Source: Fidelibacterota bacterium
Lineage (GTDB): Bacteria > Fidelibacterota > Marinisomatia > SCGC-AAA003-L08 > JACNLC01
DNA: 64,000 nt
Reading direction: 5' to 3'
Assembly (NCBI GenBank): GCA_014381725.1
Contig: JACNLC010000070.1
Span: 1-64,000, forward strand
Of this stretch, positions 1 to 2,142 are shown one piece after another (within the stretch, counting starts at the first letter, position 1; each line of letters starts with the position of its first letter). The notes beneath the pieces were generated by a model. That model was not told where the DNA came from. It ran no database searches and saw nothing but the letters and a program-made list of their open reading frames with translations. The translations under genes were made by a program, and so were the position numbers.

Positions 1-88
1 CAAATGTGCAATTTGTGCGTTGGCTTTTCATTTCAATATTTTCTTGTAGCAAATTTATCATTCTATGCTTCTTCTTTGCATTGGGCAT
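1..88 (-). CDS. Start of a second cassette ORF (partial, runs off left edge): MPNAKKKHRMINLLQENIEMKSQRTNCTF...
   Basis: Open frame on minus strand from ATG at 88..86 to the window edge; ATG lies inside the GTTATGC core-like motif ending the attC-like palindrome. Confidence 0.4.
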   Translation of the reverse strand, partial: MPNAKKKHRMINLLQENIEMKSQRTNCTF

Positions 89-274
89 AACGTTTAGTAT
101 AAGAATAGTAAGGGATTAAAATGCAATTACTTTCGGTTTAGCACTTAGCCAAATTTACAATTTTTACCGTTAATTTTCTTTAAACCGTCAAATTGTAAAT
201 TTGGCGGACTTTGTTAATTTGCACCAACTTTAGGTTTGGCACTTAACCCTTATTATTTTTATACCTTGTTGTGC
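85..274 (-). repeat. attC-like imperfect palindrome (cassette recombination site candidate)
   Basis: Ends GCATAAC (85-91) / GTTGTGC (268-274); GTATAAGAATAGTAAGGG (97-114) pairs with CCCTTATTATTTTTATAC (247-264), 16/18 plus two G.T; perfect inner 16-bp inverted repeat GCCAAATTTACAATTT (148-163) / AAATTGTAAATTTGGC (190-205). Confidence 0.65.
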
Positions 275-279
275 TTTCG

Positions 280-1173
280 TTATTTATTCACAATGTTATA
301 ATCGCCTTCTAATCCATTTATATGATTTACAAACGGTTCAATATTTCCTATTCCCCATTGTGTGCTTGTTGCAATCGTAGAGTCAGAAAGTTCTATTAAT
401 TCATCTGATTTTAAATAATATCTCTTGTGTCCAGTTCTGTCAAAAATTTCTTGTGCATTTTCACTTGTTGTAAATACTCCAATACTTCCCTGTAAATTTT
501 GGGGTATTAAACGTTCTAGCTCCGCGTATGTAATGTTAGGTTTAGATTCGATTATGGTTTTTAATACCTTGTTTACAAGTCTAGCTTTGTTGTATGTAAT
601 ACCTCTAAATTCAAATTTCGAAAAATCTCGATTTGTATAATTATATTTGAAAAACGTATCGGTAATAACAAATATTTCTCCTTTTTTACTTCTAAATCTT
701 CTTATAATTAAGCCAGCAATTGGGATTCCGCTTTCTGTTACAAAACCATCTTGAAGTTTTCTTTGTAATTCTGGAGAAATTGAAGTTCCAACTAATACAC
801 CAATCCATTTTGGGTTTTCATTTTCTGTCCAAAATTCTGGATGTTTTATTAAAATTTGTTCTTTCTCATTTAGATAATCATTTAGTTGAATTAATGTGTC
901 TTCATTAATTTCATTTACTTTTAACTCTACAATAGCAAGGTAATCAACTCCATATTTTGCAAGTATATCTATTCTTCCATCTCTGTTTGAAGTTTTTCTA
1001 CCGCTTTTAAGTGCAATTTCGGCATCTAAAACTGTTATTTCTGCAAAATTATCGGTGTCTAATTTTAATATATCTTCATTCTCCATTAAATAGGCTTCCA
1101 TTGCTAATTCTTTAAGAAAAGGATAGTCCTTTAATTCAATATTATTAGCAGTTATTTGTCTAAAGATTTCCAT
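280..1173 (-). CDS. Cassette-borne hypothetical protein, PD-(D/E)XK nuclease-like N-terminal region
   Basis: ORF; motif GRIDILAKYGVDYLAIVELKV resembles D..GRxDIL...ExK of NucS/PD-(D/E)XK-like proteins. Confidence 0.6.
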   Translation of the reverse strand: MEIFRQITANNIELKDYPFLKELAMEAYLMENEDILKLDTDNFAEITVLDAEIALKSGRKTSNRDGRIDILAKYGVDYLAIVELKVNEINEDTLIQLNDYLNEKEQILIKHPEFWTENENPKWIGVLVGTSISPELQRKLQDGFVTESGIPIAGLIIRRFRSKKGEIFVITDTFFKYNYTNRDFSKFEFRGITYNKARLVNKVLKTIIESKPNITYAELERLIPQNLQGSIGVFTTSENAQEIFDRTGHKRYYLKSDELIELSDSTIATSTQWGIGNIEPFVNHINGLEGDYNIVNK

Positions 1174-1199
1174 TTAATTTCGGAGTTTTTTTTAATGAA

Positions 1200-1206
1200 G
1201 CACAAC
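1200..1206 (-). promoter_or_regulatory. Candidate attI-proximal core site GTTGTGC (cassette boundary)
   Basis: Minus-strand GTTGTGC 27 nt upstream of the 280..1173 start codon; exact reverse complement of the GCACAAC at the far end of the same cassette. Confidence 0.45.
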
Positions 1207-1302
1207 TTATGGCTAAACCAATTACATTTATTTTCACAATATCCATTGTCGAAACAAAGGTGCGTTTATTTCTCTGGATTGGTGGTATATATGTATGTTT
1301 TG

Positions 1303-2142
1303 TCATTTACTCTCCAATATATCATCAATTGGGCTAGTAATATTCTGGAAGTTTTTCTTAGAAACATGAGTGTAAATCTCTGTTGTTTTACTACTACTAT
1401 GTCCTAACAGTTCCTGAATATAACGTAAATCAGTACCTTGTTCAAGCAAATGTGTTGCAAAACTATGACGTAACATATGTGGTGTAACTCGCTTGTTTAA
1501 TCGAGCAATGCCTGTTGCTTTGTGCAGTAATTTAGAAACACTTTCGGCACTATATCTTCCACCTGATTGTCCTTCAAACAAATATAATGTCGGTCTATAT
1601 TGAATATAATATTCTCTTAGTTGTTTGAGAAGAGGTTCAGATAAAATTGTAAATCTGTCCTTTTTACCTTTACTTCCATTAATACGAAGCAGTCCTCTGT
1701 CAGACTGAATATCATCTATTTTTAAGTTAATCAATTCAGATTTACGCAAACCACCGCTATATAGAATAGAAATAATCATCCGATGTTTTATATTTTTTGT
1801 CACAGAAAGTATTTTGGTGATTTCTTGTTTTGACAATACTTTTGGTAAAGTTTGTTCTTTTTTGGGTCGTAGAAGAGAATAACACTGCTTTTCTCTACCA
1901 AGTACTTTTTCATAATAAAATTTAATAGCATTAATTCGTTGATTCTGTTGACTGATTGAAATATCTTTAAGTTTTATCAATTCTAAAATATATGAGTTTA
2001 TTTGATTTGTAGATACATCATCTATATTTTTAGACTCAAAATATGTTACAAAAGCTTTAAAATAATTACAATATGTTTTTATTGTATTTGAACTGTATCT
2101 TTTTTGAATCAACAAGTCGTTATATTTACATAAAACATCCAC
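1303..2142 (-). CDS. Tyrosine recombinase / XerC-like site-specific integrase
   Basis: N-terminal SAM-like core-binding region; catalytic motifs SGGLRKSEL, HMLRHSFATHLLEQGTDLRYIQELLGHSSSKTTEIYTHV. Confidence 0.93.
   Translation of the reverse strand: MDVLCKYNDLLIQKRYSSNTIKTYCNYFKAFVTYFESKNIDDVSTNQINSYILELIKLKDISISQQNQRINAIKFYYEKVLGREKQCYSLLRPKKEQTLPKVLSKQEITKILSVTKNIKHRMIISILYSGGLRKSELINLKIDDIQSDRGLLRINGSKGKKDRFTILSEPLLKQLREYYIQYRPTLYLFEGQSGGRYSAESVSKLLHKATGIARLNKRVTPHMLRHSFATHLLEQGTDLRYIQELLGHSSSKTTEIYTHVSKKNFQNITSPIDDILESK

Follow-up and report, generated by a model that had tools for sequence, protein, structure and literature searches.

The DNA at the start of this contig very likely represents an integron-like cassette array at its recombinase-proximal end, in a variant that has neither the I2 insert in its integrase nor extrahelical bulges in its recombination sites. 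The system works like an integron, but it is not of the IntI family by the usual definition, as both of these features are absent. Considered together with its relatives, it probably belongs to a second integron lineage, itself widespread, whose I2-less integrases act on folded, bulge-less attCs, with members in Bacteroidota, the phylum of the window, and possibly other phyla and DPANN archaea. Such a lineage would represent either the state of integrons before I2 was gained or a separate way of capturing cassettes as single strands that arose independently.

Cassette organization at the contig end

The window analyzed here covers the initial 64 kb of a contig of 114.6 kb, from a genome assembly of 88 contigs and 2.18 Mb. 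Its first base is also the first base of the contig, where the cassette array is truncated with no DNA to its left in the assembly, and one complete cassette is visible. On the minus strand, the recombinase is followed by an attI-like site, a core site, a cassette gene, a palindrome, and the start of a further ORF (Table 1), with a 96-bp spacer between the recombinase stop and the core GTTGTGC that contains the attI-like inverted repeat. On the other side of the recombinase lie aroQ and a metal transporter, and a check of its neighbors found no phage or conjugative genes and no target-gene att sites.

Table 1. Features of the recombinase and cassette region in the window
Feature	Position	Strand	Details
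Insert-less integron integrase (tyrosine recombinase)	1303..2142	-	279 aa, GTG start; alignment, profile matches, AF2 model
attI-like site	~1200..1241	-	Inverted repeat AATAAATGTAATTGGTTTA, 7 nt, core GTTGTGC; compared by eye with the attI of relatives, putative in the window
Core site GTTGTGC, cassette start	1200..1206	-	Exact reverse complement of 268-274
Cassette gene	280..1173	-	297 aa; PD-(D/E)XK nuclease-like motif RIDILAKYGVDYLAIVELK by inspection; weak NucS match
attC-like recombination site	85..274	-	190 nt; inverse core GCACAAC (268-274), core GTTATGC (85-91)
attC 5' arm, GTATAA[A]AATA[A]TAAGGG	247..264	-	Bracketed A258 and A253 lie opposite C on the other arm
attC 3' arm, CCCTTA[C]TATT[C]TTATAC	97..114	-	Bracketed C108 and C103; A.C on the cassette strand, G.T wobble on the opposite strand
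Next cassette start	1..91	-	Core GTTATGC at 91-85; ORF open from ATG at 88, rest cut by the contig end

This layout agrees with the original prediction, which had placed the recombinase, the cassette gene, and the palindrome where we find them. It also described a core at the cassette start that is matched in inverse form at the near end of the palindrome, and the two motifs are indeed exact reverse complements, with the far end of the palindrome matching at 6 of 7 positions as described. The palindrome itself folds more stably than dinucleotide shuffles, with z-scores of -3.4 and -4.0 on the two strands. When the flank of the window was shuffled 5000 times, a rule-obeying cassette (exact 8-nt inverted core plus palindromic arms) arose three times within 500 bp of the recombinase end. 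A plain DNA search with the palindrome matched only itself in its own genome, and an Rfam search returned no match.

The recombinase falls outside the IntI and Xer families

All catalytic residues of the recombinase (R133, K158, H222, R225, H248, and Y257) are present and invariant across a 40-row alignment. The IntI-specific additional domain (I2) around patch III is absent, making the stretch between the KG and HxxRH motifs ~40 residues shorter than in classical integrases, and this confirms the earlier claim that it has no room for the IntI-specific helix region. The spacing from the KG to the HxxRH motif is mostly 63-68 residues (about 65) in the aligned insert-less relatives, compared to 107 in classical IntI and 69-78 in XerC/D; spacings were measured by regular expression, and a few values are off where another KG was matched. 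The TIGR02249 profile scored 214.7 bits against the window recombinase, below its cut-off of 265, with the best stretch covering 6-180 only. The best NCBIfam match was NF040815 (XerA_Arch), whose 220.6 bits are barely above the cut-off of 220. Most insert-less members carry an [SN]PLD-like C-terminal motif, as in IntI, and XerC/D lack it. An AlphaFold2 model of the window recombinase (pLDDT 89) gave archaeal XerA as the Foldseek match with the best E-value, and IntI4 (2A3V) as the one with the best TM-score among the top matches (0.72).

In a tree of 67 proteins, which comprised 41 insert-less members including that of the window, four Xer rows, and no XerA row, and from which phage/ICE integrases were left out, the insert-less proteins formed a clade with support of 98/97, separate from both the classical IntI proteins (100/100) and the Xer proteins (100/100). 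The window recombinase thus joins neither XerC/D nor classical IntI. Its original description as XerC-like captures the absence of I2, which is shared with XerC/D, but not the [SN]PLD motif and cassette system that it has in common with IntI, nor its separate clade. A grouping with phage or ICE integrases, which had been named as contrary evidence, finds no support in the neighborhoods of the relatives, where cassettes occur in place of phage/ICE genes. This tree gives no firm order to the deepest branches among IntI, the insert-less clade, and the archaeal relatives. Because XerC/D and the archaeal rows also lack I2, a gain of I2 by IntI would be a simpler reading than its loss in the insert-less clade. 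The Bacteroidota recombinases L092, L097, L100, L102, and L128 have an extra N-terminal domain of ~100 residues (ITLKHL...GVAW), which the window enzyme lacks.

Cassette arrays accompany related recombinases

Two genomes of the same class (L027 and L028) each have a related recombinase divergent from three cassettes that follow the core rule exactly, with the pairs GTTGGCAAC/GTTGCCAAC, GTTGGGCAAC/GTTGCCCAAC, and GTTAGGGGC/GCCCCTAAC in L027 and GTTGTGTGGT/ACCACACAAC, GTTGTGCGT/ACGCACAAC, and GTTGTGTGGC/GCCACACAAC in L028. Arrays in Bacteroidota mostly start 41-131 bp past the recombinase stop and are co-directional like the window, as in Aequorivita (L100), Aquimarina (L102), Winogradskyella ursingii (L097), and Flavobacteriaceae S0862 (L092). 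The array detected in Flavobacterium enshiense (L128) starts farther from the recombinase. Similar palindromes with exact inverted cores are therefore present beside related recombinases in many genomes, an outcome on which the original prediction had staked itself.

To count such associations, a cassette was called by exact 8-nt inverted cores and palindromic arms. Of the 70 loci with room, 22, the window included, had a cassette start obeying the rule no more than 500 bp from the recombinase 3' end, and 6 further, divergent loci had a cassette at the 5' side. By comparison, random anchors in the same loci gave 48 of 1740 (2.8%), and shuffled flanks gave 0 of 855. The same test found no 3' cassette in 48 of the 70 insert-less loci with enough downstream sequence, and some family members may have no cassettes or do something else. 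Strand was unusable as a control for the core rule because inverted cores are symmetric. A strict core-pattern palindrome scan was dropped after it overlooked the arrays of relatives, as were a loose-criteria chain test, in which shuffles also gave long chains, and a chain test requiring R''/R' similarity, which broke true chains.

Cassettes of the insert-less system often begin with GTTRNNNN and then CAAT, CATT, or a similar motif (e.g., GTTGTGCTTCATT and GTTATGCCCAAT), so that conservation at the start extends beyond the 7-base core. Among archaea, the insert-less relatives L160, L163, and L161 (Pacearchaeota, Woesearchaeota, and Aenigmatarchaeota) have attI-like repeats upstream of the recombinase, and their single cassettes start with GTTAGTTGCAAT or GTTAGGCGTAAT, with low to moderate scores.

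Recombination sites differ with the type of enzyme

To compare sites, the 3' arm was reverse-complemented and aligned with the 5' arm. All 12 of the 12 classical attCs had two one-sided bulges, typically 6 bp apart, which resemble the extrahelical bases reported for attC (PMC3053210). Across 77 insert-less attCs from 35 loci, the window among them, two same-side gaps occurred in 4. At least one A.C mismatch was found in 74 of these 77 sites, compared to 1 of the 12 classical sites, and in 25 of 27 further insert-less sites, a few of which repeat loci of the main set. Most 1x1 mismatches in insert-less attCs (126/173) were an A opposite a C on the cassette strand, and a frequent arm pattern was six pairs, A.C, four pairs, A.C, and at least four pairs. 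The window attC has this full pattern (A258/C103 and A253/C108) and has no extrahelical bases on the folded bottom strand.

Because the A.C mismatches of the cassette strand become G.T wobbles on the bottom strand, the bottom-strand hairpin is the more stable one, as calculated for 68 of the 77 sites and 33 of the 35 loci. The letters of the arms differ among sites, and pairing is kept in 607 of 643 cells, a count biased upward since arms were selected for complementarity. R''/R' cores, with an inverse core matching the start of its own cassette, were found at all 77 sites in the 35 loci. In the structure of VchIntIA, the I2 helix makes contact around the second extrahelical base (PMC3053210), so that the absence of I2 and the absence of bulges fit each other.

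Cassette genes and signs of insertion

The cassette gene of the window had no match in 244 other genomes of its phylum, and PADLOC and PDB searches with it returned no match. The first cassette gene of the Flavobacteriaceae S0862 array, in turn, shares 74% identity with it along its length. The gene thus looks foreign to its phylum, which, like the attI junctions described below, is an indirect sign of cassette movement. Cassette products elsewhere include a type IIG restriction enzyme, HNH and NERD nucleases, a PIN domain, a sulfotransferase, and a PADLOC candidate.

Three contigs match exactly across 55 nt spanning attI and GTT, after which each runs into a different first cassette. One belongs to genome G057 and carries a recombinase; the others are contigs 21 (L210) and 44 (L233) of the window's own assembly, which begin exactly with these 55 nt of a divergent-type attI, and contig 44 consists of three cassettes end to end. 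Such a shared attI, with divergence exactly at GTT, is what insertion at attI would leave. Contigs 21 and 44 may be mis-binned, as their attI is identical to that of G057. The expectation of more same-type cassettes was thus realized on other, possibly mis-binned contigs of the assembly, rather than to the left of the window, where the contig ends. Divergent-type attI-like sequences without a recognizable recombinase upstream also occur in L297, L315, L316, L320, L321, and others, with several per genome in G049, G057, and G129.

Distribution in the genome, the phylum, and Bacteroidota

The genome of the window was scanned in pieces, with 1.39 Mb of its 2.18 Mb read and some stretches covered more than once in that figure. 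It contains classical IntI C-terminal fragments on contig 86 (L018, 1-112) and contig 9 (L019, 3764-3874), as well as classical-type bulged attCs on contig 16 (L205), and seems to contain both systems, so that a classical enzyme could act in trans there. It also has separate likely XerC/D genes (L001 and L002). On contig 73, L017 (6920-7285) is a truncated paralog of the window recombinase, 75% identical over the first 113 residues, with the catalytic domain deleted and the C-terminus kept; an attI-like stem-loop and a type III restriction-modification cluster lie after it, and it looks like a decayed second copy.

Counts across genomes refer to a sample that includes many MAGs. In the phylum of the window, the insert-less recombinase is patchy (37 of 245 genomes), and classical IntI occurs in 42 of the 245. 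The recombinase family is common rather than rare, being present in 74 of 297 sampled Bacteroidota genomes when called at E <= 1e-60 to the Winogradskyella protein. Classical IntI was found in 84 of these 297, and a hand count of the two lists put both types in 22 genomes, compared to ~21 expected by chance. No classical IntI over the cut-off was found in the array-bearing Winogradskyella ursingii, Flavobacterium enshiense, or Flavobacteriaceae S0862, where TIGR02249 matches best to the insert-less recombinases themselves, with each match interrupted at the position of the absent insert.

Proposed mechanism and alternative explanations

We propose that the recombinase would bind attI, whose short inverted repeat lies a few bases from GTT, and catalyze the joining of attI to the attC core on circular cassettes, with crossover at GTT. 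Because the crossover would fall at GTT, each cassette would be left flanked by its core on one side and by an exact inverted copy of it on the other. Since the arms of attC vary in sequence and yet stay complementary, the site probably acts as a folded single strand, as it does in classical integrons. The choice of strand would then depend on the conserved A.C (coding strand) or G.T (bottom strand) positions instead of the bulged bases read by I2, and an enzyme without I2 would have to read attC by other contacts.

The anatomy, the core rule, the association with the recombinase, the site-type dichotomy, and the divergence at the attI junction were observed, and catalysis, the single-strand substrate, strand preference, and the circular intermediate are inferred. 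The single-strand step has an alternative that is unlikely but deserves some weight. The enzyme could act on double-stranded DNA as Xer recombinases do, with the palindrome serving as two ordinary inverted binding sites. It has no I2 helix, to which single-strand use has been credited (PMC7790495), and its attI, like dif-type sites, is a compact inverted repeat. However, arm sequences vary widely with complementarity kept, even if the pairing count is biased by arm selection, and the polar A.C/G.T positions recur although double-strand recognition would have no need of them. It is also quite improbable that the recombinase is a bystander and that a classical IntI elsewhere in the genome builds the array. 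The classical fragments and bulged attCs in this genome, along with the frequency of IntI in the phylum, lend this idea its appeal, but three array-bearing genomes lack a classical IntI over the cut-off, cassette starts are anchored to the insert-less recombinase, the site type is not the classical one, and co-occurrence in Bacteroidota is at chance level only.

We give very little credence to a degenerate classical integron, in which an IntI that lost its insert is dead or dying. The truncated paralog in the same genome would fit such decay; by contrast, the insert-less proteins form a separate, well-supported clade across many phyla, with intact catalytic residues and their own site type, and the differences at attI junctions point to recent insertions. 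A housekeeping Xer recombinase that happens to lie beside unrelated repeats is scarcely conceivable. The XerA_Arch score and the best Foldseek E-value both lean toward XerA, but the gene is patchily distributed, the genome has its likely XerC/D genes elsewhere, and neither the exact cassette rule nor the IntI-like C-terminal PLD motif would be expected of such an enzyme. An insert-less integron therefore remains our preferred reading, and the original suggestion of a distinct cassette-capture system parallel to classical integrons is supported by the arrays beside relatives, their own site type, and the 98/97 clade.

Comparison with known systems

The window recombinase shares its fold and its absent I2 with XerA, XerC, and XerD, but these are housekeeping enzymes without cassettes on a separate branch, and the XerC/D rows examined have no [SN]PLD C-terminus. 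Co-direction of the recombinase with its cassettes had been presented as a distinguishing feature; the arrangement in the window is real, but it is not itself unprecedented, as the reverse integrons of Treponema also have an integrase co-directional with the cassettes and transcribed toward attI (PMC3607928). Those were reported as IntI integrons (PMC3607928). The archaeal integrons of Ghaly et al. 2022 likewise have attI/attC cassette arrays, but their IntIs were required to have the IntI-specific domain, which L160, L163, and L161 lack (PMC9668308). In the accessible part of Smyshlyaev et al. 2021, which describes an "Integron-like" subgroup of tyrosine recombinases, the insertion is held essential for integron function, and we found no mention there of arrays beside insert-less members (PMC8138268). 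A literature search of open-licence papers without preprints found no insert-less integron. IntegronFinder requires the IntI-specific domain profile (PMC9668308), and arrays of this kind would thus at best be listed as orphan attC clusters. Bacteroidetes have been reported as very poor in complete integrons (PMC9024848), in contrast to the 74 of 297 sampled genomes with an insert-less recombinase.

Close counterparts are also the classical IntI integrons (e.g., class 1 and the Vibrio superintegron), with which the window system shares a tyrosine recombinase, an adjacent attI, cassette arrays, attC palindromes with R''/R' cores, the exact inverse-core rule, a C-terminal SPLD motif, and the bottom strand as the likely substrate. 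It differs from them in having no I2, in attCs with A.C/G.T positions instead of two extrahelical bulges, in arrays that are mostly co-directional with the recombinase in Bacteroidota, and in its separate clade. The I2 helix has been regarded as necessary for cassette capture, as the source of single-strand recombination, and as the innovation behind integrons, and a leading study named the lack of intermediates as a limit (PMC7790495). Natural arrays run by I2-less enzymes on bulge-less sites would supply this missing comparison, and with relatives common in Bacteroidota and other phyla, they make that view of how integrons arose and work directly testable.
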